The notes below the pieces were generated by a model that worked only from the letters and a program-made list of their open reading frames with translations, was not told where the DNA came from and ran no database searches. From Myxacorys almedinensis A (GTDB taxonomy: Bacteria > Cyanobacteriota > Cyanobacteriia > Leptolyngbyales > Leptolyngbyaceae), in contig NZ_WVIE01000032.1 of assembly GCF_010091945.1 (NCBI RefSeq), forward strand, positions 1 through 52,260: a stretch of 52,260 nucleotides of DNA, given 5' to 3'. Made by a program: the position numbers and the translations under genes. Below, piece by piece: positions 11,871 through 39,470 of the stretch (its first letter is position 1; every line of letters begins with the position of its first letter).

Positions 11871-14741
11871 ATGACACTAAATCCCGGTACGTTCTTCTCT
11901 CAGAAAACCTCCGATTGGCTAACCTGGTTTCGTACCTTGCCGCTTGGGCGTAAGCAAATTGCTGCCCTAATTGTGTGTGAGCTAATTCCAATTTTAGGCT
12001 TGGGCGTTGGGTCTATCGTGGTGCTGACCAGTAGTTTGCGATCGCAGCTTCGGTCTCAAGCGGCTGCCGAAGTGGCGGTTGCCGAGACAAACTACAACCT
12101 CAAAATTAATCAGATGGGCTTTGGGTCGCGGGGTCAATCAGACAACCGGGCAATCATCGACGTGGCAACGCTGCATCAGCGCAAAAGCGCGGTGCCAACC
12201 GAGTTGCAAGATCAGGTCAAGCAAATTCTCAAAAATGAAGTCAAGGCGCGACGGATCGAATATGCCACGCTGGTTGGACAAGATTTGCAAATCATTGTCA
12301 ATGCCAACAACAATCGAGCGAAAGAACCGATCAGAACTGAAAACCTGGTGAATTTGATCCAAGCTGCGATCGCGAGCAATCGCCAGATCAAAGCAAGCGA
12401 AACGGTCTCGTGGGAAGAACTCCAAAAAGAAGGTGCCCCCCTGCCCGATGGGGTGACCGACCAAGAGGCGCTGATTCGATATGTGGTGACGCCGGTTAAG
12501 AAGCGAGACAGCCAAGAGGTGATTGGGGCGCTGGTGTTTGGCGATATTGTCAACGGTAAGCCTGCGATCGTAGCCGCGACGCAAACTGCCTTTTCCGGCG
12601 GCTATAGTGGCGTTTATCTGCGCCGCGCTAATGGAGAATTTGCCCTAGTCACCTCCCAAGCTCAGGGGGAGCAAGGTCAACTGCAAGTGGGCATCCCCCT
12701 CTCTGATGCGGCAATTTTGGCTCAGGCTGCCACGACCAAGGGTGAAACCGTGACTCAGCGTGTCTCGATCGGCGATCAAACCCATACGATCGCGGCGCGG
12801 GCAATGCCTAACCAAGTGGTTGAAACGCTAGAAGGGGCAACTGCCGTTGTGACCAATACGCCCACGGCGATTTTGGTGCGAGGCACGCCAGAAACCAGCC
12901 TCAATCGTTTGCTAAGAACAAGTTTGCAGCAAGAATTGGTGGTGTTGCTGGCGTCGCTGGCAGCGATCTTGGGATGGAGCGTCCTCTACCGCCGCACGGT
13001 GATAAACCCCCTTGAGGATCTCAAGTCTGCAACCGAACAGTTTGCCCAAGGCGATCGCACGGCGCGCGCGGAGATCTCATCTGGCGATGAAGTCGGTCAA
13101 CTTGCGATCGCGTTTAATCAGATGGCAGACAGCATTCGTGGCTCTGAAACCACGCTGGCTAATGAAGCATACCAACAAGAACGCTACGCCAAAGACGCGC
13201 AAGCTGTGAGCGATATCACGATGCAAATCCGGCGATCGCTCAATACTGACGACATTATCCAATCTACCCTAGAGGAAGTTCGCAAATTTCTCGTTGTCGA
13301 TCGCACAATGTTCTATCAGTTCGATCATGGTTCTGTCAATGGAACGATTATCGCTGAGTCGATCACGGATACCGTCGATAGCATCCTTTATAAATCTGTT
13401 ACGGATTGGTTGGGGTTAAGCCAGATTGAACATTATCAAAAACGTACTCTCTGGTCGATTGAGAATGCGAAGGCAGATCACATCAGCGATCGCTACCGTG
13501 AAAACTTGCGAAATCTAAATATCAATGCCGAAATTGCTGTACCAATCCGCCGAAATGGTCAACTGGTGGGGTTGCTGTGCGCCCAAACCTTGCTCAGCCA
13601 AAATGCGCCTACTCCTCGGATATGGCAGCCTTCAGACCTGAGATTTTTGTCTCAACTCGCGCTGCAACTCGGCTATGCTCTAGATCAGGCGCAGGTGTTG
13701 CGAGAGCGCCAAGAGGCACTGCAAGCTTCAGAATTGCTAAAAGAAACCTTGCAACAGCAAATTATTCAGCTATTAGGCGAAGTGCAAGGGGTGGCACGAG
13801 GGGATCTAACGGTTCGTGCTAGCATTGGTTCTGGTGATATTGGAACCGTTGCAAATTCTTTTAATACCATTGTTGAAAGTTTGCGTCAAATTGTGCTCAA
13901 AGCCCAGCACTCTGCAACTCAGGTAAATCACCTCTTGAGTGAAAATGAAGCGTCTGTCCGCCAGCTTGCAGATGAATCGCTGCACCAAACCCACGAAACC
14001 ACTCGGATTTTAGAATCGGTCGAGCAGATGACCGAATCGGTGGAGGCGGTCACCGAACGGGCGCGCCAAGCCGCGATCGTGGCTCAATCTGCCTCGGCGG
14101 CGGCGCACACGGGGGAAACCGCGATGGAGTCGAGTGTTCAAAGTATCATGACCCTGCGATCGACGATTGAAGGAGCCACCAAAACCGTGAAACAGTTGGG
14201 AGACTCTTCTCAACAGATTGCGCGAATTGTGTCGCTGATCCACGAATTGGCCGCGCAAACGGATGTGTTAGCCATCAATGCCAGTTTGGAAGCCTCTCGT
14301 GCCGGAGAACAAGGGCGGGGCTTTGCGATCGTAGCTTCTGAAATTGGAGAGTTGGCGGCGCGATCGACAGCCGCAACGCGCGACGTTGAGAAAATTGTGG
14401 AAGCGGTGCAACACCAAACGCAGGAAGTGGTCACCGTCATGGGGCAGACGGCGGTTCAGGTGGTCGAGAGTGCCCATTCCCTCAAAAACTCCAGACAGAG
14501 CCTGGTGCATATGGTGCATTTATCGAATCAAATTGATGACCTGGTGCGATCGCTCTTAGATGCGATGACTGCCCAAACCCAGACCACCGATGCGGTCACC
14601 GCATTGGTAAAAGATGTGGCTCACGTCTCGACGCGCACCTCTGGGTCATCGCGGCAGGTGTCGAAAGCATTACGCCAAACCGTGGATGTGGCAGAAGAGT
14701 TGCAGCGCTCGGTGGAAACCTTCAGGGTTGAGCGCAACTGA
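11871..14741 (+). CDS. Second GAF-containing methyl-accepting taxis receptor
   Basis: 956 residues from the chosen ATG; a longer frame opens at GTG 11814, but the added 19 residues (rich in R, S, Q) look untranslated and neither start has a strong ribosome site. Membrane helix ~27-50, extracytoplasmic sensor ~51-360, membrane helix ~365-385, HAMP, GAF (~430-585), second HAMP-like segment, then MA domain with tip 'AQTDVLAINASLEASRAGEQ'. Its GAF aligns with that of the first receptor but has Arg-Tyr ('ISDRYRENL') where the bilin Cys-His would be, so it should not bind a bilin covalently. The C-terminal half is closely similar to the first MCP, suggesting duplication. Its last 20 bases overlap the convergent methyltransferase gene. 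Confidence 0.85.
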   Translation: MTLNPGTFFSQKTSDWLTWFRTLPLGRKQIAALIVCELIPILGLGVGSIVVLTSSLRSQLRSQAAAEVAVAETNYNLKINQMGFGSRGQSDNRAIIDVATLHQRKSAVPTELQDQVKQILKNEVKARRIEYATLVGQDLQIIVNANNNRAKEPIRTENLVNLIQAAIASNRQIKASETVSWEELQKEGAPLPDGVTDQEALIRYVVTPVKKRDSQEVIGALVFGDIVNGKPAIVAATQTAFSGGYSGVYLRRANGEFALVTSQAQGEQGQLQVGIPLSDAAILAQAATTKGETVTQRVSIGDQTHTIAARAMPNQVVETLEGATAVVTNTPTAILVRGTPETSLNRLLRTSLQQELVVLLASLAAILGWSVLYRRTVINPLEDLKSATEQFAQGDRTARAEISSGDEVGQLAIAFNQMADSIRGSETTLANEAYQQERYAKDAQAVSDITMQIRRSLNTDDIIQSTLEEVRKFLVVDRTMFYQFDHGSVNGTIIAESITDTVDSILYKSVTDWLGLSQIEHYQKRTLWSIENAKADHISDRYRENLRNLNINAEIAVPIRRNGQLVGLLCAQTLLSQNAPTPRIWQPSDLRFLSQLALQLGYALDQAQVLRERQEALQASELLKETLQQQIIQLLGEVQGVARGDLTVRASIGSGDIGTVANSFNTIVESLRQIVLKAQHSATQVNHLLSENEASVRQLADESLHQTHETTRILESVEQMTESVEAVTERARQAAIVAQSASAAAHTGETAMESSVQSIMTLRSTIEGATKTVKQLGDSSQQIARIVSLIHELAAQTDVLAINASLEASRAGEQGRGFAIVASEIGELAARSTAATRDVEKIVEAVQHQTQEVVTVMGQTAVQVVESAHSLKNSRQSLVHMVHLSNQIDDLVRSLLDAMTAQTQTTDAVTALVKDVAHVSTRTSGSSRQVSKALRQTVDVAEELQRSVETFRVERN

Positions 14742-15426
14742 TGATTTTGATCATTTCGTTCCCGCCTCTCTGAAATTCGTAGGGCACCGCGCAAATCTCG
14801 ACCCGGTGACCCTGCGATCGCACTGCCTCGATCACGGGCGATACAAACGGCGATCGCTCTCCCGTCATGTTGATCAACAGCGGAAAAATCCTCACCTCAC
14901 CCGCAACGCGGCACAGTTCTAAAACTGATACCCGATGAAATTCTAGAGACAACTGATCGGAATACGTAAACAGCAAATGGGAACTCAACGCTAAATCAAA
15001 CTGCTGAACCTCGAAGGGCAAATGGGGAAGCGCGTCTGCCCAATACCGCTGTTGCTGCAACCCTGTCGGAAAATCATCTAAAAATTGGCGCATCGCTGCC
15101 ATGCGAGTGGCAACCAACTGTTCTGGCGATCGCACCCCCGCCCACACAAACTGATCCCGCGAGGTCTCAAGCTTCTCAATAATGACGGGTGAGGTTTCCT
15201 CGATTCGCCTGCCAATTTCTGCTGCCGAAAACTGATAAATTGGATCACAAGAAATCACAGAACGCCCTTGCCCTGCCATCTCTGCATTAAAGCTGGCAGG
15301 ACCGCCCGCTACATCCAAAATTGTGCGCTCTAAGTCATCCATCGTCAGATCAAACATTTGGCAATATTCAGCCCACGATCTCCCCCAAGGAACAACCTGC
15401 TCTAGTCGCAAACCCATGATTGGCAC
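14722..15426 (-). CDS. SAM-dependent methyltransferase-like protein
   Basis: 234 residues. Motif I is 'TILDVAGGPASFNAEMAG', followed by an acidic strand end in 'SVISCDPIYQF', a typical class I Rossmann methyltransferase opening. 'VQQFDLALSSHLLF' is the motif IV region and 'FHRVSVLELCRVAGEVRIFP' the later strand, as in cyanobacterial methyltransferase-like proteins of unknown substrate. No metal motif or second domain is seen. Two starts (M1, M4) are close together; the first is given. It is convergent with and overlaps the second MCP by 20 bases, so it is not part of the taxis operon. Confidence 0.75.
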   Translation of the reverse strand: MPIMGLRLEQVVPWGRSWAEYCQMFDLTMDDLERTILDVAGGPASFNAEMAGQGRSVISCDPIYQFSAAEIGRRIEETSPVIIEKLETSRDQFVWAGVRSPEQLVATRMAAMRQFLDDFPTGLQQQRYWADALPHLPFEVQQFDLALSSHLLFTYSDQLSLEFHRVSVLELCRVAGEVRIFPLLINMTGERSPFVSPVIEAVRSQGHRVEICAVPYEFQRGGNEMIKIISCAQP

Positions 15427-15773
15427 CCTATACTCAGAGAATGTTTAAGGTGAGGATCTCTAAAATGTTGCCAGTCCACGCCTTTTGTCTTTGGCAATGC
15501 ACTATACAATTTAATAGGTAATTTAATGAATTGTTAATTTAATCGTTAATGTAACTTAATGGTTATAGCCGTTTAAGAGGCATCAACGCCCCTGTCTTTG
15601 TTCACCGTCTCCTAAGACATTCAGCATTTTCCATGCCGCCCTTAACTCTCCCGCACGAGAGAAAAACCAGAGATCCAACTCTCCTCCTGGGGCAGAAAGG
15701 ATGGGGAGGGGGTTGTGTTTAACAGTTGCGTTAGCTCTTTTCTCCATTTCATTCTTTATTCCTTATTCTTTTT
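15427..15773. other. Intergenic region with AT-rich TTAAT-repeat block
   Basis: A divergent promoter region. Bases ~15508-15562 are very AT-rich with several TTAAT/TTAATG words about 11 bases apart on one helix face, which could be a regulator site; the match to a Pho box is poor. No gene seen. Confidence 0.35.
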
Positions 15774-16226
15774 ATGTCTGACTGGCTGGAACATACAGTG
15801 CAAGTTGAAGTTGAAGTGCCGATCGATGATGTTTGGGGTCTGTGGTCAGACTTGGAACAGATGCCGAAATGGATGCAGTGGATCGAATCAGTGACCATCT
15901 TAGAAGACAATCCAGATTTGTCGCGCTGGAAATTGGCAACGGGTGGGCTGGAATTTAGCTGGAAATCGCGGATTGAGAAGAAAATTCAAAATCAGATTAT
16001 TCAGTGGGAATCGGTGGATGGATTGCCCAATCGGGGAGCCATTCGGTTCTACGATCGCGGCGAGCAGGGCAGTGTTGTCAAGATGACCGTTGCCTACGCG
16101 ATTCCGGGCTTTCTCGGTCAGCTAATGGATAATTTGTTCCTCGGTCGCATTGTTGAATCGTCGCTCAAAGCCGATTTGGCTCGATTTCGAGAGTACGCCC
16201 TCAAGGCGCAAAACTCGCCCCGCTAG
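15774..16226 (+). CDS. SRPBCC-family (cyclase/dehydrase-like) protein
   Basis: 150 residues. The START/Bet v 1-like fold is suggested by 'VQVEVEVPIDDVWGLWSD', then 'MPKWMQWIESVTIL', 'QNQIIQWESVDGLPNRGAIRF' split over the central strands, and the long C-terminal helix 'SSLKADLARFREYALKA'. These proteins enclose a hydrophobic pocket; the cyanobacterial family is annotated as cyclase/dehydrase without a known ligand. No signal peptide. Spacing to neighbours suggests a single-gene unit. Its stop codon overlaps the outer end of a candidate miniature element beginning at 16222. Confidence 0.78.
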   Translation: MSDWLEHTVQVEVEVPIDDVWGLWSDLEQMPKWMQWIESVTILEDNPDLSRWKLATGGLEFSWKSRIEKKIQNQIIQWESVDGLPNRGAIRFYDRGEQGSVVKMTVAYAIPGFLGQLMDNLFLGRIVESSLKADLARFREYALKAQNSPR

Positions 16227-28540: not shown

Positions 28541-28877
28541 GAAGAGGAGTGTGGGGTGTTGAGCGCTCCCTTGCAAAATTTTCTACGCAAGAGAGCCAGA
28601 GTGTGGTTCACTTTCTCCTGGGGAACATCTCCCTCTACCCCTCTACCCTCTCACCCCTCCACCCATTAACTCAAAGTTGACAATCTACTAGCAGCTAGAT
28701 CTGTCACCCACGATCGCTGAGAGCATTATCAGAAATTTGGCTTTCAATAAAAAGTTAAACCTCAAAAAGTGAGCAAAAAGTGAGCAGCTTTTGACCTGGA
28801 AGCCAGCAATAAAACCAGGCAAACTGTAAACAGTTGGAAGTTACACACCAACAAACACATTCAACGAGGTACATACC
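28541..28877. other. Left boundary of the accessory island
   Basis: No gene. It holds a C/T-rich stretch and, at 28651-28692, the inverted copy of the 42-bp block found at 16222-16263. The last 100 bases are A/T-rich with the ribosome site (ACGAGG) of the first leader-peptide gene and presumably its promoter. Confidence 0.5.
28651..28692 (-). repeat. 42-bp block shared with 16222-16263
   Basis: Its reverse complement starts GCTAGTAGATTGTCAACTT and continues through GGGTGGAGGGGTG; only two or three of 42 positions differ from the copy after the SRPBCC gene. No partner inverted end was seen here. Confidence 0.7.
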
Positions 28878-29147
28878 GTGAACCGTTTAACCGTACAATC
28901 TGAACTGTTGATGGAACTGTCTGACGAACAACAAGAAATCGTCTCAGGTGGCATCAGCTTGATGGACATGATTAGTACTGATTTTGATTTCTCGAAGGAA
29001 TCCCTTGCCTTTAAAGCAGAAGCAACGTCAGGACCGATGGGTAGCAACGTCAGCCAATTGGTTGCTGCTGACAAGGCTGACCTCTTCACGAGCGCTTCTA
29101 AAGACTTCTCGCTCAATTTCAACCCAGGCGACTTCATCAAATTCTAA
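28878..29147 (+). CDS. Double-glycine leader peptide precursor (bacteriocin-like), first
   Basis: 89 residues from GTG 28878 after an AACGAGG ribosome site. The leader 'LLMELSDEQQEIVSGG' has the L-S-x-E-Q-Q-E-x-V-x-G-G consensus of cyanobacterial peptides exported by C39-peptidase ABC transporters; cleavage is expected after G24-G25. The 64-residue core has no cysteine and is acidic, with Ser, Phe and Asp, ending 'NFNPGDFIKF', so lanthionine or disulfide chemistry is excluded. No modifying enzyme is encoded nearby. The core matches nothing I recognise; it could be a bacteriocin, a signal or a matrix peptide. HlyD and PCAT genes follow on the same strand. Confidence 0.8.
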   Translation: MNRLTVQSELLMELSDEQQEIVSGGISLMDMISTDFDFSKESLAFKAEATSGPMGSNVSQLVAADKADLFTSASKDFSLNFNPGDFIKF

Positions 29148-29178
29148 GTCGCCTCTTTAATGCTAGGAAGCAATTGTG

Positions 29179-29316
29179 AAAGATTCCAGAGCATGTCTAT
29201 CATGTTCATCTTGATGGATCTTGCGTTCTCTATTGACTGATAACTTGATTGTGATGTAACGCAATCTATTTATTAGCCAGCCAATTAAGAGATGCGATCG
29301 CTGCTCTGGAATCTTT
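29179..29316 (+). other. Nested inverted-repeat element between leader peptide and HlyD
   Basis: A perfect 15-bp inverted repeat, 29179-29193 and 29302-29316, encloses a second one, TTGCGTT/AACGCAA (29221-29227, 29258-29264). The right arm ends in T-rich sequence (TTTTCTT). In RNA it would fold as a long branched hairpin and may act as a partial terminator or processing site setting the ratio of peptide to exporter. A defective insertion element is an alternative. Confidence 0.6.
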
Positions 29317-29409
29317 TCTTACCCACAATATTCTAATCTGATTGCAAAAGCTGTGTCTTTCATGAAGCAATCATAGCGCATTTACTGTTCATTCATTGGT
29401 TGCAATCCT

Positions 29410-30702
29410 ATGGAGAACACACCGAGTCAACTCCCAACCATCAGCAGTAACGAACTCCTCCCCCGGCTTAGCCCTTGGGCGATCGCAGGGGGCGGCGTCT
29501 TGGTCATTATCTTTGGAACTGCTGTGCTGCTTTCTACGGTGCTAAAGTACAACGTGACGGTTAAGGCACCCGCCACTATCCGACCTGCTGGCGATCTGCG
29601 CCTCGTGCAAACCGCGATCGAGGGCACCGTAGAACAAATTGTCGTGAAAGAGAATCAAACCGTCAAGGCTGGGGATGTGATTGCGCGAATCGATGACTCC
29701 CGCTTTGCAACCACCCAAAGCCAGCTAGAGGGGGATATCCGGCAGGGAAGACTGCAACTTGCTCAGGTGACGGCTCAAACTCAAGCCCTCGACAGTCAAA
29801 TTGCAGCGCAGTCTAACTTGGCGCAGCGCAGCACTCAAGCCGCAGAAGCGCAGTTAAGAAGCCAACAACGGGTGTTTCAAGACCAACAACAAATATCTCA
29901 ATCCAACGTTCAAGAAGCAACTGCCGCGCTCAATTTAGCCCAAGAGCAACTGACTCGATTTCGCCAGCTTGCTGAGGCAGGTGCAGTCGCAACTCTAGTT
30001 TTAAAAGAAAAAGAGGCGGCGGTTGCTGTTGCCCAAGCTCAAGTTAATCGCGCCAGTTCTGGGTTAAATCCGACAGATGCAGAAATTGCCAGGGCAGAAG
30101 AGCAAATTGCTCAAACCCAAGCTCAAGGAGCCTCGACGTTAGCCACGTTGCAGCAACAGCGAGAACAACTCGTGCAAAATCAGATCGAATTACAGCGTCA
30201 ACTCGATCGCACCCAAAAAGAACTGCAACAAGCTGAGCGCAATTTTAGCCAAAGCACGATCCGCGCCCCTATTTCTGGAACCTTGCTCCAACTCAATCTT
30301 CGCAATCCATCCCAAGTGGTGCAGTCTGGAGAAGCGATCGCGCTGATTGCACCTCAGAACGCGCCATTCGTGATTAAAGCGCAAGTTTCGGCTCAAGACA
30401 TTGATAAGGTCAAGCCCGAACAACAGGTGCAAATGCGGGTTTCGGCATGTCCGTATCCTGATTATGGCACCCTCAATGGCACGGTCAAAACCGTAGCACC
30501 TGATGCGCGACCTGCAAGTGATGGACAAAATGTCCCCGCTACTTACGAAATCACAATGCAACCGGAAAACGCGTTTGTTGGCGATGAGCGCCGCCAGTGC
30601 CAACTGCAAGCTGGAATGGTAGGAAGTGCAGATATTATTTCACGTCAAGAAACTGTTGTGCAATTTATTCTCAGAAAGACAAGGTTGATCTCAAATTTGT
30701 AA
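29410..30702 (+). CDS. HlyD-family periplasmic adaptor
   Basis: 430 residues. One membrane helix near the N-terminus ('WAIAGGGVLVIIFGTAVLLS') is followed by a split biotinyl-lipoyl domain ('AIEGTVEQIVVKENQTVKAG'...'IRAPISGTLLQLNLRNPSQV') around a long Gln/Ala-rich coiled coil (~105-285), then the beta-barrel 'DKVKPEQQVQMRVSACPYPD'. Such adaptors connect an inner-membrane ABC exporter to a TolC duct. Order leader peptide - HlyD - PCAT - leader peptide marks it as the adaptor for the exporter at 30755. The TolC partner is probably encoded elsewhere. Confidence 0.9.
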   Translation: MENTPSQLPTISSNELLPRLSPWAIAGGGVLVIIFGTAVLLSTVLKYNVTVKAPATIRPAGDLRLVQTAIEGTVEQIVVKENQTVKAGDVIARIDDSRFATTQSQLEGDIRQGRLQLAQVTAQTQALDSQIAAQSNLAQRSTQAAEAQLRSQQRVFQDQQQISQSNVQEATAALNLAQEQLTRFRQLAEAGAVATLVLKEKEAAVAVAQAQVNRASSGLNPTDAEIARAEEQIAQTQAQGASTLATLQQQREQLVQNQIELQRQLDRTQKELQQAERNFSQSTIRAPISGTLLQLNLRNPSQVVQSGEAIALIAPQNAPFVIKAQVSAQDIDKVKPEQQVQMRVSACPYPDYGTLNGTVKTVAPDARPASDGQNVPATYEITMQPENAFVGDERRQCQLQAGMVGSADIISRQETVVQFILRKTRLISNL

Positions 30703-30754
30703 TTTGTTATTCGTGTAATTTGTCAGTTGTATGACGCAGGTTTAAGGTTTGGCT

Positions 30755-32917
30755 ATGGTTGCTTCATCAAGACACGGCTATCAATGTGTGTCACAACTGA
30801 GTGAGGAAGATTGTGGAGCAGCCTGTCTCGCCTCGATTAGCAAACACTATGGACAGGTTTTGAGTATTGCTCGCTGTCGAGAAGCGGTGGGAACAGGTCA
30901 ACTTGGAACGACTCTATTAGGGCTGCGACGAGGATTTGAACGGTTGGGGTTTAAGACGCGATCGGTCAAAGTGTCTGGGGAAATTCTCGATCGACTGGGC
31001 GAACTGCCGCTTCCCGGTGTGATCCACTGGAAGGGCTATCACTGGGTTGTTTTGTATGGCAAGCGGGGGCGAAACTTCATCGTTGCCGATCCCGCTTTGG
31101 GACTTCGTTATGTCAAGCGTCAGGAGCTAATGACCGCCTGGAACGGCATTATGCTACTGCTAGAACCCGATCCAGAGGCATTTTTGCCTGCCGCTCAAGC
31201 CGAAACCAAAGAGGGGTTTGGACGCTTTTTGCAACGAGTTTCCCCCTATCGATCGCTGCTATTGGGGGCGCTCTTCATCAACTTAGTGTTGGGGCTGCTC
31301 TCTCTGGCAAGTCCGCTCTTGATGCAGATTCTTACCGATGATGTATTAGTACGACAAGATGCTCAACTGTTGACGGTCGTGATTGTGAGTGTCGTCGTGT
31401 TGAGTTTATTTAGCGGCAGCCTGCAACTGTTGCAGTCCACCTTGATTGCTCACTTTAGTCAACGGGTTCAGTTGGGATTTGTACTGGACTTTGGGCGCAA
31501 GATTCTTCATTTGCCCCTCAGTTACTATGAGACTCGTCGTAGTGGTGAAATTGTGAGCCGACTGCGGGATATCAACGAGATCAATCAATTGCTGGGTCAT
31601 GTTGTGATCGGATTACCCAGCCAATTCTTCATCGCATTGGTTTCTTTATGTTTTATGCTATTTTATAGCTGGAAACTTACTGTAGCCGTTCTTTTTATTG
31701 GTCTGTTAATGACGGTATCCGTAGTACCGTTTCTACCAGCGTTGCGACGAGCGACTCGAAATCTATTAGTTTTATCGTCCGAAAACCAAGGCGTGTTAGT
31801 TGAAACCTTTAAAGGAGCCTTGGTGATGAAATCGACGAATGCGGCTCCGCAGTTTTGGGAAGAGTTGCAGAGTCGGTTTGGTCGTCTTGCGAATTTAACC
31901 TTTAGTACGACTCAAATTGGCATCATCACAGGCACGTTTACGCAACAGGTGAGCCGCATTGGAACGGTTGTGCTACTCGGGTTGGGTAGCTTTTTGGTGA
32001 TCAATAAAGAACTCAGCATTGGTCAGCTATTAGCGTTCAATGGTATGCAGGGCAATGTGTTAGCCTTTATGACTGCCATTTTGAGCTTGGTAGATGAATA
32101 TTTTCGGTCTCAAACGGCGGTCGATCGGGTGTCGGAAGTGATTGATGCGACGCCAGAAGTGAGCGGCAATACCCAAAAGCCCTTTGCTCCGCTTTCGGCA
32201 GATGCTGACGTGATCTGTCACCGCCTCAATTTTCACCATGCGGGCAGAGTGGATTTGATGGAAAATTTTTCCATCACGCTTCCGGGTGGAAAAGCGATCG
32301 CGCTGATCGGCACATCGGGGTGCGGAAAAAGCACCCTCGCTAAACTCATTGCTGGATTGTATGAACCCAATTCGGGCAATGTCCGGATTGGCTATTACAA
32401 CATGCAAGATTTATCCCTCGATTGTTTGCGCCAACAGGTGATTTATGTGCCGCAAGATGCCCACTTTTGGAGCCGCACGATCGTTGAAAATTTTCGCCTC
32501 GGAACGCCCTACATTTCGTTTGAGCAGATTGTGAAAGCGTGCCAGATTGCAGGTGCAGATGACTTTATCAGTCAGTTGCCCAATCAATATCAAACGGTGT
32601 TAGGCGAATTTGGTGCGAATCTATCGGGTGGACAACGGCAGCGCCTCGCGATCGCACGGGGCATTGTCACCGATCCTCCGGTACTCATCCTCGACGAATC
32701 GACGGCTGGTCTCGATCCGGTGAGTGAAGCGCAGGTACTCGATCGGTTGCTGGCGACTCGCCGCAATAAAACGACGATCATGATTACTCATCGTCCGAGT
32801 GTCATCGATCGCGCCGATTGGATTGTGTTGCTCGATAAGGGTGAAGTGAAGATACAAGGTTCGCCGAGCGAGTTGGGTGCATTGCCCGGAGACCATTTGA
32901 AGTTTTTGTCGTATTGA
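30755..32917 (+). CDS. Peptidase-containing ABC exporter (PCAT, C39 + permease + ATPase)
   Basis: 720 residues from ATG 30755 (TTG two codons earlier also possible). The C39 peptidase (~8-145) has the catalytic Cys20 in 'SEEDCGAACLASI', His in 'GYHWVVLYG' and Asp in 'IVADPALG'. Six membrane helices span ~165-440. The ATPase has Walker A 'GTSGCGKST', signature 'NLSGGQRQRLAIARG' and Walker B 'PVLILDES', followed by 'TAGLDP' rather than the usual TSALD. It cleaves leaders after Gly-Gly and exports the core across the inner membrane; the two flanking precursors are its obvious substrates. Confidence 0.92.
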   Translation: MVASSRHGYQCVSQLSEEDCGAACLASISKHYGQVLSIARCREAVGTGQLGTTLLGLRRGFERLGFKTRSVKVSGEILDRLGELPLPGVIHWKGYHWVVLYGKRGRNFIVADPALGLRYVKRQELMTAWNGIMLLLEPDPEAFLPAAQAETKEGFGRFLQRVSPYRSLLLGALFINLVLGLLSLASPLLMQILTDDVLVRQDAQLLTVVIVSVVVLSLFSGSLQLLQSTLIAHFSQRVQLGFVLDFGRKILHLPLSYYETRRSGEIVSRLRDINEINQLLGHVVIGLPSQFFIALVSLCFMLFYSWKLTVAVLFIGLLMTVSVVPFLPALRRATRNLLVLSSENQGVLVETFKGALVMKSTNAAPQFWEELQSRFGRLANLTFSTTQIGIITGTFTQQVSRIGTVVLLGLGSFLVINKELSIGQLLAFNGMQGNVLAFMTAILSLVDEYFRSQTAVDRVSEVIDATPEVSGNTQKPFAPLSADADVICHRLNFHHAGRVDLMENFSITLPGGKAIALIGTSGCGKSTLAKLIAGLYEPNSGNVRIGYYNMQDLSLDCLRQQVIYVPQDAHFWSRTIVENFRLGTPYISFEQIVKACQIAGADDFISQLPNQYQTVLGEFGANLSGGQRQRLAIARGIVTDPPVLILDESTAGLDPVSEAQVLDRLLATRRNKTTIMITHRPSVIDRADWIVLLDKGEVKIQGSPSELGALPGDHLKFLSY

Positions 32918-32936
32918 AAATAACGAGGTTATTACT

Positions 32937-33218
32937 ATGTCTGAACTCGATCAATCTTTTACCGAACTGTCTGCGACCCAAGAGGAGAGCGTTGCGGGTG
33001 GGTGTGACATGGCTCCCTCTCTCTTTTTTCAAGAAACCGCGATCGATACTTTCGGAGAAAGTCAAATGAGTGTTGGGAATCAAGACGGTTTGAGCGCCTC
33101 ATCCTCAACTCGAACTGGATACAGTTTTCGACAAACTACATTCGCCATTTTTGGTGGAGACAATTTTCAAGCGAGTTCGTTTTTGAGAATCCTTGATTTG
33201 TTTAGGAGGTTCTTTTGA
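32937..33218 (+). CDS. Double-glycine leader peptide precursor (bacteriocin-like), second
   Basis: 93 residues, 19 bases after the exporter stop, with the same AACGAGG ribosome site as the first precursor. Leader 'FTELSATQEESVAGG' ends at G21-G22. The 71-residue core begins with its only cysteine, is rich in Ser, Thr, Gly, Phe and Gln, and ends in a cationic amphipathic stretch 'SSFLRILDLFRRFF' that resembles a membrane-active helix. It shares no core similarity with the first precursor, suggesting two-peptide action or a diversified cargo set. Leader homology is clear; activity is inference. Confidence 0.75.
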   Translation: MSELDQSFTELSATQEESVAGGCDMAPSLFFQETAIDTFGESQMSVGNQDGLSASSSTRTGYSFRQTTFAIFGGDNFQASSFLRILDLFRRFF

Positions 33219-33317
33219 TGCGGTTTTTTAGGATATGTTTGTCAACGTTTTGCTACGTTGCTGTCTCGCCCTGAAACAAATATTACTTTGCAGAGCCTTC
33301 GGCTATGGGCTAATAGA

Positions 33318-33383
33318 GGAAAGTCTGTTAAAACGGGCGAAAGAGAGTAAACTGCTCTTCCAGTTCACTTTGGTAGACTTTCC
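33318..33383. other. Nested inverted-repeat element after the second precursor
   Basis: GGAAAGTCT/AGACTTTCC (33318-33326, 33375-33383) encloses AGTAAACTG/CAGTTCACT (33346-33354, 33361-33369; one mismatch) with loop CTCTTC. A two-tier hairpin without a T run. It occupies the 283-base gap before the GTPase-like gene and could be a processing site or small RNA. Confidence 0.5.
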
Positions 33384-33501
33384 CTATCCGGTTTACTTGA
33401 GCGTCTTTTGAGCGATCGCTCATTTGTTGTCAATTTTTTGTTGCGCAATGTGTGAGTCATTATCTGCCTTTTTTCTCATCTCTTACCCCAGATGACTATA
33501 G

Positions 33502-34458
33502 ATGATTATGCGGCTATTCTCTAAACCGTCTCCTAAAACATTCAGCCTCCTGAGTATTGGTCAGCGTGGAGTCGGTAAGACTGTTTTTCTAGCAGGTAGC
33601 TACGCTGAATTGCAGGGCGATGACAGGTCAGATCATCCTCAGTCCTCTTGGTTTGAGTGCCAAGACAGCGAGGTGCAGAGCAACTTGGACAAAATTCTGT
33701 ATCATGTTCAACAAACGGGCTTATATCCCCCCGCCACTATCAAAATTACTAACTTCAACTTTAGTTTGAAGCACCACGCCTTGCGGGGCATCAAAACGCT
33801 CTGCAATTTCCGTTGGTGGGATATTCCAGGCGAGTCTTGTAATCTTCGCAATCCCGATTTTCAAGAACTCGTTTTAAACTCGCACGGCTGCTGTGTGTTT
33901 ATCAACGCTCAAGCTCTCGTTCACGATTCAGACTATGCCCATACGTTGGAGGACATCTTCAACCAAGTGATTGCTATTGCCTCGCTGATCGGTCAACATC
34001 GGTTGAACTATGCGTTTGCTCTCATTCTGACCAAGTGTGATGCGTTAGCGTCTGGACCTGCCACCCAGCTTCAGCTTGAACAAAACCTTCAACCGCTCAC
34101 AATGCGTCTTGATGCGCTCAACGCCAATTACAAATATTTCTACTCTGCAATCCCAATTGTTTCCATCAGTGGCACTTCTATGCTCAATGCCAGAGGTGCC
34201 GCAGATCCGTTGCTGTGGCTATTATCAGAATTAAACAAACATCACCGATTTCAACCCGATCGCACTCTCGCCAGTAGCTTGACTCAGACTGTTTTCGCGC
34301 CGCCACTCTTTCCACCTCATGTACAGCGATCGCTCCTGACGCTAACATTGATCACACTCGGTCTTCTGGGAGTTGTCATGTTATTCTTATTCGCGATCGG
34401 ATACTCGATAACAAATCCCATTCAAGTTCCCAGCCAAGAGCAACCCTCCCGTTTGTAA
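33502..34458 (+). CDS. Membrane-anchored GTPase-like P-loop protein
   Basis: 318 residues. Walker A/G1 'SIGQRGVGKTVFL' (K26), G3 'WWDIPGE' (D107-x-x-G110) and G4 'ILTKCDAL' (T-K-x-D, D180) make a TRAFAC-type GTPase likely. The G3 'D-x-P-G-E' form recalls the GTPases of bacterial conflict systems described with double-GTPase modules. Near the C-terminus a single membrane helix, 'LTLTLITLGLLGVVMLFLFA', would tether the domain to the inner membrane with the nucleotide site in the cytosol. The WD40 protein follows 87 bases downstream in the same direction, so the two probably work together. An ATG two codons later is an alternative start. Family assignment is from motifs only. Confidence 0.7.
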   Translation: MIMRLFSKPSPKTFSLLSIGQRGVGKTVFLAGSYAELQGDDRSDHPQSSWFECQDSEVQSNLDKILYHVQQTGLYPPATIKITNFNFSLKHHALRGIKTLCNFRWWDIPGESCNLRNPDFQELVLNSHGCCVFINAQALVHDSDYAHTLEDIFNQVIAIASLIGQHRLNYAFALILTKCDALASGPATQLQLEQNLQPLTMRLDALNANYKYFYSAIPIVSISGTSMLNARGAADPLLWLLSELNKHHRFQPDRTLASSLTQTVFAPPLFPPHVQRSLLTLTLITLGLLGVVMLFLFAIGYSITNPIQVPSQEQPSRL

Positions 34459-34459
34459 T

Positions 34460-34532
34460 TCGTAATTCGCAGTGATCGAGAGGATTGAGTTTTCTGAGCG
34501 CCAAAGCAATCAACGCTGATCACGAATTACGA
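34460..34532. repeat. Inverted repeat between the GTPase and WD40 genes
   Basis: TCGTAATTCG-CAG-TGATC (34460-34477) pairs with GATCACGAATTACGA (34518-34532) apart from a three-base bulge. It could form an attenuating hairpin, or be a dispersed AATTCGTAATTCG-type repeat. Confidence 0.6.
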
Positions 34533-34545
34533 TTGAAGCTTGCCC

Positions 34546-36441
34546 ATGTCTCTGCTGTTAGGTCAACTTATCTACACCAGTCTTGCCAAGGTGGGATTTC
34601 AAGCACTCACAAGTGCAGAGGTTCCGCCTGAAATTTGCCAGCAATTTATTGAACAAATTGTTTACCAATACTGGGATTCCTACAACCCTCCCAGTGCTGA
34701 CTATCGAGCCGCTTATCTTCATCAACTATCTGCCAATCAAACGTTGTTTGGCTGGGTCTACAACGATGGCGCAGACGATCTGGGTCGGAGTCATATTCCC
34801 TATTTTATCTGCTATTGTTTCGCTGGGTTGCTACAACCTATTCACCTCGAATCTATTTTTACGTGTCTCTCGACCGGGCCGATTGAGCAGATTGATCGGC
34901 ACTGTCTACCAATTCATTTAGAAAGTATTCTCCTCCCAGAGGATGGGCGTTATCAACCTGCCCGTCTTGGCGTTGCGATCGCGGCTCCCATCCAAGAACG
35001 CAGCTACCTAACCTTGCAACAGGGAAAATTATTGAAGCTGTTTGCGCCAGAAGCATACAAAGCACAGAGTCTTGGCTTGGAAGGGTCGATCGTCACTCAA
35101 CCGCTTTTAGAAGAACTGACTTCACCCGACGCTCTGGTTAGCACAATGGGTGGAAAACAACTTAACAGCAATTCTGCGATTGACGCAGGGCGCAACTCTG
35201 AAGGAACCGTAGATGGAATTGAATCGATTGCAGCAAATGAATCGCTGGAGCAATTGAGTTCAGAAACCTATCAGCAACTGCTTCTAGCAAAAGTAAGACC
35301 TGATGCATCTCCAAGACAGGCTTTTAGACTTTGGCACTGGAGGCGGGGTGCAAGCCGTCGAAGCTTGGCAACGCCGTTTTCTCGGAAGTTGCGCTTGGCG
35401 CTAATCGCCGCGATCGCACTGATGGCGCTGGCGATCGGCGGTTTCTATGGTTTCCGGCTCTTTCCAGTGGCAACGCTCACACCAACTTCAACGTCTGCCT
35501 CAAACCAAGATTCTGACAACCAAGATTCTGACAACAGGCGTTCAGAAAATCTGACCCTTGCTAAAACATTGACAGAGCATTTAGATCCCGTTTGGTCGCT
35601 CGTCTTGGGTTCGGATGGAAAAACGTTGATCAGTGGTAGCGATGATCAAACCATTAAAATTTGGAATGTTGAGACGGGGACTGTACTCAACACCCTCTCT
35701 GGGCACACAGATGTGGTGCGATCGCTAGCTCTTACACCCGATGGCAGAACGCTGGTCAGTGGCAGTGGCGATCGCACGATCAAAATTTGGGATTTACAAA
35801 GCAACCAACCGATCCAAACGCTCGAACAGGACAATCCCGTTTGGTCAGTTGCCATCAGTTCGGATGCACAAACGTTGGTTAGTGGCAGTGAAGACGGACT
35901 CCTCAAAATTTGGGATCTCCCGACCGGAGAACTTCTAAACACTATTCCAGCCCATGACAGCCGCGTTTTCTCTGTCACAATCAGCCCAGATGGGAAAACT
36001 GTTGCGACTGCCAGCCTCGATCAAACCCTTAAAATTTGGGATCTCGAAACGGGTGAACGGCTCAGAACCATGCCTTCAGAGATGAGCGCAGGGCATTCTG
36101 CGGCGGTTCGTGCCCTTGCGTTTAGTCCCGATGGGCAAACCCTTGCTAGTGCAAGCTGGGATAACAGCCTCATCCTTTGGAATTGGCGAACCGGGGAAGC
36201 GCTCCGCACCTTTGTTGGGCACACCTCGCGAGTGGTTGCTGTCGTATTTAGCACAGATGGACAACTGCTAATTAGTGGCAGCGTTGATAACACCATCAAC
36301 CTATGGTCTGCCCAAACTGGAACATTGCTTCGGACGCTTTCTGACCACACAGATTGGATCTTAGCGCTAGCGATCGATTCTCAACGTCTTGTGAGTGCTA
36401 GTAAAGATCAGACCATCCGGGTGTGGCAGTTTCAGCAATAG
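34546..36441 (+). CDS. WD40-repeat membrane protein with GTPase-associated-like N-terminal domain
   Basis: 631 residues from ATG 34546 (TTG two codons earlier). Residues 1-~180: 'LLGQLIYTSLAKVGFQALTS', 'IVYQYWDSYNPPSADYRAAY' and 'FGWVYNDGADDLGRSHIPYF', a domain seen at the N-terminus of cyanobacterial WD40 and kinase proteins; it resembles the GAP1-type N-terminal domains that accompany GTPases in conflict systems (my inference). A variable linker (180-280), a membrane helix 'LRLALIAAIALMALAIGG', a short 'NQDSDNQDSDN' duplication, then seven WD40 blades ('GKTLISGSDDQTIKIWNVET' is the first), enough for one closed propeller. By topology the propeller would be on the far side of the membrane from the N-terminal domain. 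Two dispersed repeats lie in the linker and anchor. Confidence 0.8.
   Translation: MSLLLGQLIYTSLAKVGFQALTSAEVPPEICQQFIEQIVYQYWDSYNPPSADYRAAYLHQLSANQTLFGWVYNDGADDLGRSHIPYFICYCFAGLLQPIHLESIFTCLSTGPIEQIDRHCLPIHLESILLPEDGRYQPARLGVAIAAPIQERSYLTLQQGKLLKLFAPEAYKAQSLGLEGSIVTQPLLEELTSPDALVSTMGGKQLNSNSAIDAGRNSEGTVDGIESIAANESLEQLSSETYQQLLLAKVRPDASPRQAFRLWHWRRGASRRSLATPFSRKLRLALIAAIALMALAIGGFYGFRLFPVATLTPTSTSASNQDSDNQDSDNRRSENLTLAKTLTEHLDPVWSLVLGSDGKTLISGSDDQTIKIWNVETGTVLNTLSGHTDVVRSLALTPDGRTLVSGSGDRTIKIWDLQSNQPIQTLEQDNPVWSVAISSDAQTLVSGSEDGLLKIWDLPTGELLNTIPAHDSRVFSVTISPDGKTVATASLDQTLKIWDLETGERLRTMPSEMSAGHSAAVRALAFSPDGQTLASASWDNSLILWNWRTGEALRTFVGHTSRVVAVVFSTDGQLLISGSVDNTINLWSAQTGTLLRTLSDHTDWILALAIDSQRLVSASKDQTIRVWQFQQ
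35184..35210 (+). repeat. Dispersed repeat, copy 4
   Basis: GACGCAGGGCGCAACTCTG then AAGGAACCGT. Read in frame in the WD40 protein linker as D-A-G-R-N-S-E-G-T-V, the same frame as in the MurA, M23 and hydrolase copies. Confidence 0.65.
35375..35403 (-). repeat. Dispersed repeat, copy 5 (diverged, opposite orientation)
   Basis: Minus strand reads TAGCGCCAAGCGCAACTTCC then GAGAAAACG, about 22 of 29 positions matching copy 1. It is inverted relative to the gene and encodes the start of the membrane helix of the WD40 protein. Confidence 0.4.
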
Positions 36442-37176
36442 ACCGTTCCGAAACGAGCGATGAGCCTGCTGCAAGACTTACATTGACGTGAATTGGGATT
36501 AGACGGGGTGTGGCACAGAGGGCTGGGTGGCGTTGCCACTGTTCGGGGGACTTTCCCCCGCGCCCCCGTTTGTCAGGAGACGGAAGCCGTCCCCCGACAC
36601 CCCCTCGCTAAGGGAAATGAGAACGACGGGTGGAGCGGCGAGAGCGATGGGTAGCGTTCTTGGCGGTTTAGGGCTGAACTTGAACTGACGTTGATTACAT
36701 CTGTCTGCCAATATTTATCTGCTAATCTGCTTCAACGATTTTTGCAAGGCATGGAATGAGTGATCTAATGGGCGATCGCTTTTATACCTTCACCCTGCGT
36801 CGGTCGTGGTTTCTCGCCGCTTACATTGATTCAACACATTGCTTTCGACACATGAGTGCATGTGCATCGTTCTAGCGTTGCTACTCCCATATGCAGATAT
36901 GTCATTTTTTTGATTGCAATTTGTTAAAAATGCGAATCTAGTTCAACAATGGCTTCGTACTCAAACTACAAACAACAATTATCTGCATTTCTTGATTACA
37001 GGTTGTAACTTCTGAATCAACAGACAATAATTATTTGCATTTCCTGGCTATAGGAAGAAGTCAAGAAGTCGTAATCCCTGAATTGATGGACTGTCTGAGT
37101 GATGGTCTGAACTTAAACAGTTTCTTTAACAAACATCTACCTCTTTAACATAAATGTCTATCGTAGGAGAGATACT
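36442..37176. other. Long intergenic region with GC-rich hairpin block
   Basis: 735 bases without a convincing gene. Bases ~36500-36690 are GC-rich with several stems (GTGGC-gtt-GCCAC, GGGGGA/TTCCCCC, GACGG-aag-CCGTC), the look of a multicopy intergenic repeat; the minus-strand frame across it (36499-36711) is low-complexity and not called. The remainder is AT-rich and holds a direct repeat upstream of the STAND gene. Confidence 0.5.
36971..37054. repeat. Pair of ~32-base direct repeats upstream of the STAND gene
   Basis: ACAATTATCTGCATTTC... (36971-37002) and ACAATAATTATTTGCATTTC... (37021-37054), each running on to a TACAGG/TATAGG end, about 50 bases apart. They lie 120-205 bases before the start and could be operator sites. 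Confidence 0.45.
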
Positions 37177-39333
37177 ATGCCCCTGCTTTTGCTAGAACGA
37201 CTAAATGCAGAACGGCAACGTTATTTCACTGGACGACAACACGAGTGCGATCGCTTTAAAGCCGCGATTGATGCCGCAAAACTCCCATTTTCGGTTCTTC
37301 ACCTGTCTGGCGTGGGTGGGGTTGGCAAGACCATGCTGCTGCGAGAATGGATGCGAATCTGTCAGTCGTCGCAAATCCCAGTCGCTTACCTAGATGCCCG
37401 CAACTTTGACCCGTTGCCAGATGCATTTCTCAGTGCACTCCGGGCGGCGATGCATCTCGCTCCAACCGATGCCCCCACCCCTATTTTGGCAGCCCAAAGC
37501 GATCGCTATGTGCTCCTAATTAATAACTATGAACTGTTGACTCCGTTGGATGGTTGGCTGCGTGAAGTGTTTTTGCCTCAGTTGTCAGAACACATTTTAG
37601 TCGTGCTAGCGGGGCGGTGTGCCCTGTCTTCGGTGTGGCAAACTGACCCAGGCTGGCAGACATTGCTACAGTCGATCGCGCTGCAAAATCTGACTCCAGA
37701 CGAAAGCCGATTGTATCTGACGAAGCGAGCTATTCCAGTCGCCCAGCAACGAACCATTATTGAGTTTACGTCTGGTCATCCGTTAGCGCTGTCTCTGGTT
37801 GTGGATGCCTTGGCGCAGGGGCAAGAGATTCAGCTTCAATCGAAAGCCAGCCCCAATGTGATTAAGACGCTGCTCGAAAAGTTTTTAGAAGAAGTTCCCA
37901 GTGCTGCTCACCGCAAGACGCTAGAAGCCTGTGCAACCGTGCGCCTTATGACAGAGGCATTACTCGCTGAAATGTTGGATGAAGCAACCGTCCATGAGAT
38001 CGAGTTGCACGGGTTAGATGTGCATGAACTATTTGAATGGTTGTGTGGGCTATCGTTTATTGAGGTTGGGGCATCAGGAGTATTTCCTCATCGGTTGGCG
38101 CGAGATATTTTAGTCACAGACTTGCGTTGGCGCAATCCTAACTGGTACGCCACCCTGCAAGCGCGGGCTTACGCCTATTATTCAGCCCGTCTAGGCTTGA
38201 CTCAAGGGCATAAACAACAGCAGATTTTGCTCGACTGTCTGTTTCTCCATCGTCACAACGTGGTGATTAAGTCCCGGTTCACCTGGCAAGAAGAGTGCCA
38301 TTTGCAAACCGATGGATTTCAAGAGCGCGATCCTTCGGAGCTTGGCAGAGCCAATCGCACTGCCTTGCTTAAGACGGTGACCCAGTACGAAGGAGAAGCC
38401 TCGGCACGTCTGGCAGCGCATTGGTTGGCGCGGCAGCCGCAAAATGTGTTGGTGATTCGCGATGCCGATCAGCGCTTTACCGGGTTTGTCATGACGATCG
38501 CCCTGCACCAAGCCAGTCTAGACGATCTCGACGCTGACCCCGCGACCCGGGCGGCTTGGCAGTATCTCCAGCAATACGCGCCCTTGCGATCGGGCGAAGG
38601 TGCCATTTTATATCGCTTCTGGATGGCGCAGCACACCTATCAAGGGGTTTCCCCGACGCAACGGCAGATCTTTACCAGTGTCGTGCAGCAGCATCGCAAC
38701 ACACCGGGAATCGCGTTTACATTCATTCCTTGTGCTGAGCCAGCCATGTGGGCAAATTTGTTTAGCTATGCTGATTTAGCGCGAATTCCGGAAGCAGATT
38801 TTGAGGTGGGCAAGCGACGCTATGGAGTCTACGGACATGACTGGCGGGTGGTCTCTCCGGCGGCATGGCAAGAACGGTTAGTGCAACGAGAAATTGCACC
38901 GTCTGCTCCGATGCTCGCCTTGTCTGATGCGGCTGACTCTCCGTTAGTGTTAAGTCAGCCAGAATTTGCTAGCGCTGTGCAGGAAGCGTTGCGTCATTTT
39001 GTGCGTCCGGATATGTTGCACGACAATCGGTTGCTGCGATCGCGCCTCGTCTTAGAACACGCGGCAACCCATGACAGCGCAAAGCGAATTGCCGTTCTGC
39101 AATCTTGGGTGCGAGACGCGACGGAATTGTTGAAGGTCTCTCCCCGCGACGAAAAACTCTACCGGGCGTTATACCAAACCTATTTGTCTCCTGCGCCAAC
39201 TCAAGAACAAGCGGCGGAAGCGCTAGATTTGCCCTTTAGTACCTATCGTCGTCATCTTAAAGCAGGCGTGACCAGAGTTGCAGATATTTTATGGCAGCGA
39301 GAAATTCAGGGATATGTTCCAAAAACGAGTTGA
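37177..39333 (+). CDS. STAND-like ATPase with C-terminal helix-turn-helix
   Basis: 718 residues, good ribosome site (AGGAG) 8 bases before ATG. Residues ~15-350: P-loop 'LSGVGGVGKTMLLREW' (K51), sensor-like 'LVVLAGRCALSS', and 'TPDESRLYLTKRAI' as in NB-ARC/AAA STAND proteins. The Walker B segment reads 'YVLLINNYELL': N116-N117 replace the acidic pair, so hydrolysis may be slow or lost. Residues ~420-600 ('VLVIRDADQRFTGFVMTIAL', 'EGAILYRFWMAQHTYQGVSP') have a weak acetyltransferase-like look (inference). The end, 'PTQEQAAEALDLPFSTYRRH', is a sigma-4/LuxR-like helix-turn-helix, which suggests transcription control. It is the last gene of the island. Confidence 0.75.
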   Translation: MPLLLLERLNAERQRYFTGRQHECDRFKAAIDAAKLPFSVLHLSGVGGVGKTMLLREWMRICQSSQIPVAYLDARNFDPLPDAFLSALRAAMHLAPTDAPTPILAAQSDRYVLLINNYELLTPLDGWLREVFLPQLSEHILVVLAGRCALSSVWQTDPGWQTLLQSIALQNLTPDESRLYLTKRAIPVAQQRTIIEFTSGHPLALSLVVDALAQGQEIQLQSKASPNVIKTLLEKFLEEVPSAAHRKTLEACATVRLMTEALLAEMLDEATVHEIELHGLDVHELFEWLCGLSFIEVGASGVFPHRLARDILVTDLRWRNPNWYATLQARAYAYYSARLGLTQGHKQQQILLDCLFLHRHNVVIKSRFTWQEECHLQTDGFQERDPSELGRANRTALLKTVTQYEGEASARLAAHWLARQPQNVLVIRDADQRFTGFVMTIALHQASLDDLDADPATRAAWQYLQQYAPLRSGEGAILYRFWMAQHTYQGVSPTQRQIFTSVVQQHRNTPGIAFTFIPCAEPAMWANLFSYADLARIPEADFEVGKRRYGVYGHDWRVVSPAAWQERLVQREIAPSAPMLALSDAADSPLVLSQPEFASAVQEALRHFVRPDMLHDNRLLRSRLVLEHAATHDSAKRIAVLQSWVRDATELLKVSPRDEKLYRALYQTYLSPAPTQEQAAEALDLPFSTYRRHLKAGVTRVADILWQREIQGYVPKTS

Positions 39334-39470
39334 GGACAAACCATTCTAGGCATTGCAAAAAGGCAGTCTGCGAGAATGTTTGAATAGTCTGGTAGGTCTC
39401 CTTTGCTTCGGTTCTGTCCCCCTCTCCGTATTTCCCGTAAATCTACACCGCAACTTCATTATTCCTTCAC

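Follow-up and report, generated by a model that had tools for sequence, protein, structure and literature searches.

Systems built around DO-GTPases were predicted from sequence in 2020 (PMC7159879); the main text of that paper mentions no C39 or other peptide exporter, names WD40 once, for APAF-1, and reports beta-propellers in MoxR-vWA systems, and PMC11237479 holds one passing mention of DO-GTPases. The literature searched yielded no experimental paper on DO-GTPase systems and no description of a pairing between such a GTPase and a WD40 protein or of the gene cassette presented here. This pairing was analyzed in Myxacorys almedinensis A, in one complete contig of 52,260 bases (NZ_WVIE01000032.1, referred to as the window; the source genome comprises 4.96 Mb in 85 contigs), where two adjacent genes encode a membrane-anchored GTPase and a WD40 protein that begins with a domain of its own (the N-domain). 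The gene pair, or dyad, is real and recurs beyond chance, one arginine of the N-domain is coupled to the presence of the GTPase, and the features of the two proteins suggest, with a probability of about 0.55, that they form a two-protein transmembrane GTPase switch.

Two alignments, of 30 N-domains (A1) and 27 GTPases (A2), and two surveys, of 386 genomes drawn from the phylum and of 144 nearer relatives, underlie the counts given here. Across the 386 genomes, the N-domain was found in 13 (14 copies) and a close GTPase (E 1.5e-60 or better, the next best match being 7e-21) in 10 (14 copies), with both families in nine (hypergeometric probability 1.5e-14); an A2 match of any kind at E<=0.001 was present in 41 genomes, those beyond the close set being more distant. 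The nearer relatives gave 13 genomes with the GTPase, 16 with the N-domain and 12 with both (2.2e-13), both probabilities being overstated because the genomes are related. Eight of the 14 N-domain copies in the larger survey lie beside an intact GTPase, two beside a decayed one and four apart, and the 14 close GTPases divide into eight paired and six apart. In total, 29 pair loci were collected, of which three (L071, L150 and L151) are repeats, and the two genes are adjacent in all 26 distinct loci, some of these being close orthologues in sister species. In three loci (L052, L068 and L069) the GTPase and WD40 genes overlap by 1 nucleotide (nt). The outcome that would have told against the initial annotation of this region, a GTPase without similarity to conflict-system GTPases in a pair found mostly apart, was not what was observed, given these 26 adjacent loci and the DO-GTPase2 match described below. 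The two decayed GTPase genes (L148 in genome G225 and L149 in G223) are reduced to short remnants with a stop, and the partner gene beside them is still open. A second partner protein without an adjacent GTPase was also seen upstream of a complete pair in G038 (L070, 6690-8642).

The residue most closely tied to the GTPase is the arginine of a D-x-x-G-R motif in the N-domain, which was present in all 26 paired copies and in 11 of 16 unpaired copies (Fisher 0.005). Grouped by genome, it was retained in 35 of 35 copies from genomes with an intact family GTPase (37 of 37 when two species of one genus are added) and in two of seven copies from genomes without one, the absence of the GTPase having been checked with the A2 profile, which gave only short weak matches (G076 and G223) and decayed remnants (G223 and G225). 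Of the 28 columns with at least 90% conservation among GTPase-accompanied copies, it showed the strongest association with the GTPase (Fisher 1.9e-5). F36, W45, G71, W72, Y92, G113 and G144 were kept in all seven copies without a GTPase, so that the fold of these copies is probably intact. A natural experiment was provided by one genus in which the domain occurs in five of 12 species, with Arg (CGT) in three species having an intact adjacent GTPase and Pro (CCT) or Ser (TCC) in the two with a decayed GTPase; among 26 near-invariant positions, the arginine alone was lost in both of the latter and kept in all three of the former. A trans-acting arginine is the classical finger of GTPase-activating proteins (GAPs) in established GTPase biology (PMC4316618), and by this analogy the D-x-x-G-R arginine may be catalytic for the GTPase.

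The initial annotation had described the first protein as a GTPase with G1, G3 and G4 motifs and a C-terminal anchor, and both open reading frames (ORFs), the three motifs and the anchor were confirmed in the translation and by hydropathy (Table 1). Its suggestion of similarity to conflict-system GTPases was borne out by a narrow pass, the protein scoring 27.8 bits against DO-GTPase2 (PF19993; cut-off 27, E 2.4e-6), with 25 of the 27 aligned GTPases matching this model at E<=1 (best 7e-8). The Walker B/G3 glutamate conserved in DO-GTPase2 is present within DIPGE; among the distinct paired GTPases, the G1 pattern and D-x-P-G-E were found in 26 of 26, the G4 pattern in 25 and a clear anchor after the GTPase domain in 17. 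NCBIfam and PADLOC searches gave no match for the GTPase, and sequence searches against solved structures returned a Rab-type GTPase (4e-4) and a dynein light intermediate chain (1e-3). In a Foldseek search with the predicted GTPase structure (mean predicted local distance difference test score, pLDDT, 59), EngB- and Rag-type small GTPases ranked at the top (E ~4e-4 to 9e-4), with low template modeling (TM) scores and unrelated glycosidases further down the list; this search of a modeled structure only agrees with the sequence result. Two GTPases of other loci (L058, 136-1545, and L059, 2005-3423; 469 and 472 amino acids, aa) carry a long extension past the anchor and may thus possess an extracytoplasmic portion themselves.

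Table 1. Features of the cassette in the window (all on the + strand; positions refer to the window).
Feature	Position	Strand	Size or residue	Basis or remark
Whole inserted cassette between gcvH and gcvP	28546..39443	+		blastn of G001 junction
P1, double-glycine-leader peptide precursor, CTB family bacteriocin	28878..29147	+	89 aa (GTG start)	NF038167, 54.6 bits vs cut-off 32
HlyD-family adaptor	29410..30702	+	430 aa	Pfam HlyD_3, E 2.2e-19
C39-peptidase ABC exporter	30749..32917	+	722 aa (TTG start as listed)	Pfam Peptidase_C39 E 3.5e-32, ABC_membrane, ABC_tran
P2, double-glycine-leader peptide precursor	32937..33218	+	93 aa	Homologues in 5 further cassettes
Membrane-anchored GTPase	33502..34458	+	318 aa	Pfam DO-GTPase2 PF19993, motifs, hydropathy
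G1 motif, GQRGVGKT	33559	+	residue 20	Motif in translation
G3 motif, DIPGE	33820	+	residue 107	Motif in translation
G4 motif, TKCD	34030	+	residue 177	Motif in translation
GTPase C-terminal anchor, one hydrophobic segment	~34342-34398	+	~residue 281	Hydropathy
WD40 protein ORF	34540..36441	+	633 aa (TTG start as listed)	ORF list
N-terminal partner domain	34546..35079	+	~178 aa	Alignment of 30; no Pfam match
Invariant arginine codon	34786-34788	+	R81 from ATG, R83 from upstream TTG	
Single membrane anchor of WD40 protein	35389..35445	+	~residue 284	Hydropathy scan
Seven-bladed WD40 propeller	35557..36438	+		Pfam WD40 PF00400, seven stretches, E 1.5e-75
AAA/NACHT-like NTPase	37177..39333	+	718 aa	AAA_16 E 2.8e-6, below cut-off; inside insertion

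The single anchor and seven-bladed propeller proposed for the second protein were likewise recovered, as one hydrophobic segment and as seven PF00400 stretches, with seven W-D-type strand ends visible in the translation. Its start is most likely the ATG at 34546 and not the TTG at 34540. The anchor was found in 21 of the 26 distinct partners, and 21 of 26 gave at least four WD-type matches with a crude pattern. The initial annotation had placed the GTPase and the N-domain on one side of the membrane and the propeller on the other, and the charges flanking the segment in the window (+5 before, +1 after) fit an N-terminus inside and a propeller outside. For the N-domain, structure prediction with nine sequences was too poor to use (mean pLDDT 50), sequence searches against solved structures gave nothing below E 0.14, and one scan for viral copies found none.

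The N-domain had been compared in the initial annotation with the GTPase-associated domains of GAP1 type. None of the 30 N-domains matched the GAP1-N1 or GAP1-N2 models of Pfam at E<=10 (the HMMER filters drop most matches above 0.1), and GAP1-M (PF20014) was found in none of the 144 relatives, G000 included, and in one of 14 control genomes. For comparison, a Rhodococcus plasmid (L134) supplied a canonical GAP1-N2 system (Pfam GAP1-N2 E 2e-18, GAP1-M 7e-8 and a DO-GTPase2 in the locus), whose GAP1-N2 domain was not found by the A1 profile at E<=10 in HMMER. With hhalign, the first strand of this domain (FGELTYTSF) aligned start to start with that of the window family (LGQLIYTSL) at P 0.0065-0.0097, a single GAP1-N2 sequence being compared; control runs with this pair reversed yielded 0.42 and 0.64, and the P value is not significant because another reversed control, of family b (see below) against its own reversal, reached 0.0008. 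Membership of the N-domain in GAP1 is thus unproven, with no profile match and no significant hhalign result, and homology to GAP1 was not demonstrated. FNIII was absent from the matches listed for the five cassette proteins (for the WD40 protein, the best 25 of 66 families). What stands of the earlier comparison is functional equivalence to a GAP1-type GTPase partner, which is supported by the position beside a DO-GTPase, the shared D-x-x-[GN]-R and the coupling of the arginine to GTPase presence.

Among the matches listed, N-domain proteins of three further families, termed a, b and c, are encoded immediately downstream of other cyanobacterial DO-GTPases or a few genes further on. The D-x-x-[GN]-R pattern occurs within residues 61-115 in 14 of 14 members of family a, four of six of family b, two of three of family c and 25 of 30 of the window family, against a background of 24 in 521 other ORFs of at least 250 aa, chance ORFs included. 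In hhalign comparisons of the N-domain families, a and b aligned at the motif with P 0.002-0.004 and the other combinations were weaker; HMMER gave no confident link. A GAP1 model was absent from the Pfam families listed for a, b and c (best 25 of 87 and best 25 of 36). The DO-GTPases of family a (L114, L176-L178, L180-L184, L186-L188 and L191) lie near an N-domain of the form FLVSRNQ.LDYRTVVAPDF...DSFGREIY, for which no model was found among the best 25 of 87 Pfam families, and WD40 repeats were also detected in six of 13 scanned family a proteins. On the Geminocystis plasmid pGM01 (L132, 5992-11722), two N-domain proteins of another family alternate with three DO-GTPase-like GTPases, of which two score above the Pfam cut-off and one below it; further upstream, this region also encodes an annotated anti-phage dCTP deaminase and a deoxyguanosinetriphosphate triphosphohydrolase.

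In the window the dyad follows a C39 peptidase fused to an ABC exporter and an HlyD adaptor, the makeup of a C39 peptide exporter, as well as two peptide genes, P1 and P2, which the initial annotation had not mentioned. P2 scored 22.7 against NF038167, under the cut-off of 32, and its core is conserved (Q.TAI..F.E and RTGY..RQ.T.A), with 21 invariant columns across six cassettes; for cyanobacterial bacteriocin precursors in general, very little core conservation has been reported (PMC3140520). The gene order of the window (hlyD, C39 exporter, P2, GTPase, WD40) is found again in L068 and L069 and at two places in G229, which belongs to a different family, and L052 shows the same order from the exporter onward, its contig starting there with hlyD beyond the contig end. 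Overall, the C39 exporter, double-glycine peptide, GTPase and WD40 genes stand together in six of 26 pair loci, the window included, and in L052, L068 and L069 only 5-6 nt separate P2 from the GTPase gene, the corresponding gap in the window being 283 nt. The association with a peptide exporter suggested in the initial annotation therefore holds for these six loci; the link is real and not obligatory. Strict coupling of the pair to C39 exporters was rejected on this count, and strict coupling of P2 to the pair because 30 of 386 genomes contain P2-like matches at E<=0.01, with the five strongest copies located in G000, G229 (twice), G410 and G076. On the GTPase tree, which is unrooted, exporter linkage requires three label changes, and one early gain with two losses would fit. 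P1-type genes lie upstream of hlyD in L068 (one), L069 (one), L138 (two) and L139 (six), the last being six tandem copies (14215-16013) upstream of one cassette.

The cassette, with its two peptide genes, exporter and dyad, forms an insertion of ~11 kb. In blastn, the alignment to a genome of the same genus (G001) runs to 28546 and resumes at 39443, with 155 bases of its own between; in G001, 363 nt separate the matches to gcvH and gcvP, and the intervening block is absent. Of nine genomes examined, gcvH and gcvP lie within 363 nt in five (G001, G003, G004, G010 and G038), 4.5 kb apart in G033 and at separate places in G006, G012 and G014; in G006 and G033 the cassette is sited far from gcvH. 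A transposon origin was set aside, since a Pfam scan of the five + strand ORFs in the insertion that reach 120 aa revealed no transposase and no repeat stood out at both ends. The NTPase gene downstream of the dyad has homologues adjoining the cassette in G006 (where only the first and last parts match) and G033 (similarly short, 437 aa), and is found apart elsewhere too; since G060 and G054 carry close homologues that do not adjoin the pair, it is unlikely to be a core component.

In the proposed transmembrane switch, the GTPase, of DO-GTPase2 type with a Glu at the place of the catalytic Gln of Ras, and the N-domain of the WD40 protein would be cytoplasmic and act on each other. The invariant arginine would serve the GTPase, the simplest possibilities being an arginine finger or a switch contact, and the propeller, past one transmembrane helix, would face the periplasm (or lumen) and sense a protein or peptide cue. 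Because the dyad of the window is joined to a C39 export operon with two peptides, the likeliest cue or controlled process would be these peptides or the exporter itself. A much bolder extension, which we regard as decidedly speculative, would make the D-x-x-G-R domain a bacterial superfamily of arginine-finger GTPase-activating partners for DO-GTPases, with GAP1-N2 and cyanobacterial families a-d as branches, coupled here through the transmembrane helix to a periplasmic WD40 receptor of the self-exported double-glycine peptide, an outside-in circuit comparable to a minimal G-protein receptor system.

Several observations weigh against the transmembrane switch. The arginine was chosen post hoc, after inspection, and F20 (9e-4) and Y48 (0.001) are also associated with the GTPase; at genus level the p value is 0.0037, from a hand-tallied table of 10 and 5 groups with named genomes left out. 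The two species with decayed GTPases are sisters with N-domains 94.8% identical, so their losses probably represent one event, and the other three arginine losses concern unpaired copies that are divergent. Two copies in G099 retain the arginine with no GTPase detected, and a GTPase may have been missed in this assembly (94% complete, ~350 contigs). The GTPases also give weak matches to other P-loop families (AAA_7 in 13 of 27, best 4e-5). A clear anchor is lacking in nine of 26 GTPases and five of 26 partners, and the membrane is therefore not essential to the pair. The orientation with the N-terminus inside and the propeller outside is weakly supported across the family, the N side being more positive in 12 of the 21 distinct partners with a segment, equal in three and opposite in six. 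Finally, 20 of the 26 pair loci are without the peptide/exporter set in the DNA examined, some contigs being short.

The data were also considered in the light of other functions. The dyad could be an anti-phage or abortive conflict system of the DO-GTPase kind, triggered by envelope damage or phage and merely parked beside the exporter. Its GTPase family belongs to published conflict systems (PMC7159879), and it is on this family membership only that a conflict role is possible; the patchy distribution and the different genomic places of the cassette agree with it. Known effector domains were absent from the same listed Pfam matches of the five cassette proteins, PADLOC returned only one match inside the WD40 repeats (none for the N-domain) and a weak one for the NTPase (E 0.017), GAP1-M is missing from the 144 relatives, and an exporter and peptide adjoin the dyad in six loci, all of which argue against this reading and leave it doubtful.

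The initial annotation had raised self-recognition, immunity or secretion control as possible functions. A role tied to the peptide system itself, in producer protection or in gating the C39 exporter, would account for the gene order from C39 through P2 to GTPase and WD40 in six loci of two families (with hlyD ahead in the five reaching that far), for the short P2-GTPase spacing and for P1 scoring as a CTB family bacteriocin. Pair and exporter each occur without the other, however, the exporter with both peptide kinds having no pair nearby in two loci (L192 and L193, with P1, hlyD, C39 and P2) and the pair lacking the set in the 20 loci mentioned above, so that a general role in immunity or exporter control becomes less likely, an obligatory one is disfavored, and the reading as a whole is unlikely. 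It is more improbable still that the two proteins form a structural or assembly scaffold with no signaling, the arginine being no more than a hot spot for binding. WD40 propellers often act as scaffolds, and what the arginine data demonstrate is dependence on the GTPase rather than catalysis; the occurrence of G1 and D-x-P-G-E in every one of the 26 paired GTPases, and of G4 in 25, in contrast, argues for nucleotide cycling. The transmembrane GTPase switch is thus preferred, and the interpretation given in the initial annotation is partly supported.

The dyad represents a compact two-gene version of DO-GTPase systems in which the natural experiment within one genus points to a single arginine as the link between partner and GTPase. 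Two purified domains and a single point mutant make the switch mechanism open to a direct test, and the dyad links DO-GTPase switches to secreted peptides in cyanobacteria.

Compared with described systems, the dyad shares with the MglA/MglB and Rup modules (PMC4316618) a prokaryotic small GTPase with an adjacent possible GAP partner, and differs in its DO-GTPase2 family, in DxPGE instead of TVPGQ/GTPGQ and in its WD40 partner. The cyanobacterial C39/HlyD bacteriocin clusters of Wang et al. 2011 (PMC3140520) likewise contain HlyD, a C39 ABC exporter and double-glycine precursors; the main text of that paper mentions neither GTPase nor WD40, whereas the gene row described here includes a dyad of the two. 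The dyads of families a, b and c in other cyanobacteria resemble it in that a DO-GTPase lies close to a protein whose first 115 residues contain, in most members, D-x-x-[GN]-R, and in family a with WD40 repeats in part, although their N-domains are not confidently linked to it by HMMER or hhalign. With the DO-GTPase/GAP1-N2 systems (Kaur et al. 2020, PMC7159879) it has in common the GTPase family PF19993, the G3 glutamate, a cognate partner beside the GTPase and membrane segments, as well as D-x-x-G-R, also present in the one Rhodococcus GAP1-N2 sequence compared. In those systems two paralogous GTPases per locus are optional, occurring in 38% (PMC7159879); here the N-domain is unmatched by the GAP1-N1/N2 models, no GAP1-M accompanies it in the 144 relatives, and a single matching GTPase in the genome is combined with a C-terminal WD40 propeller and, in a subset of loci, with a C39 exporter and its peptides.

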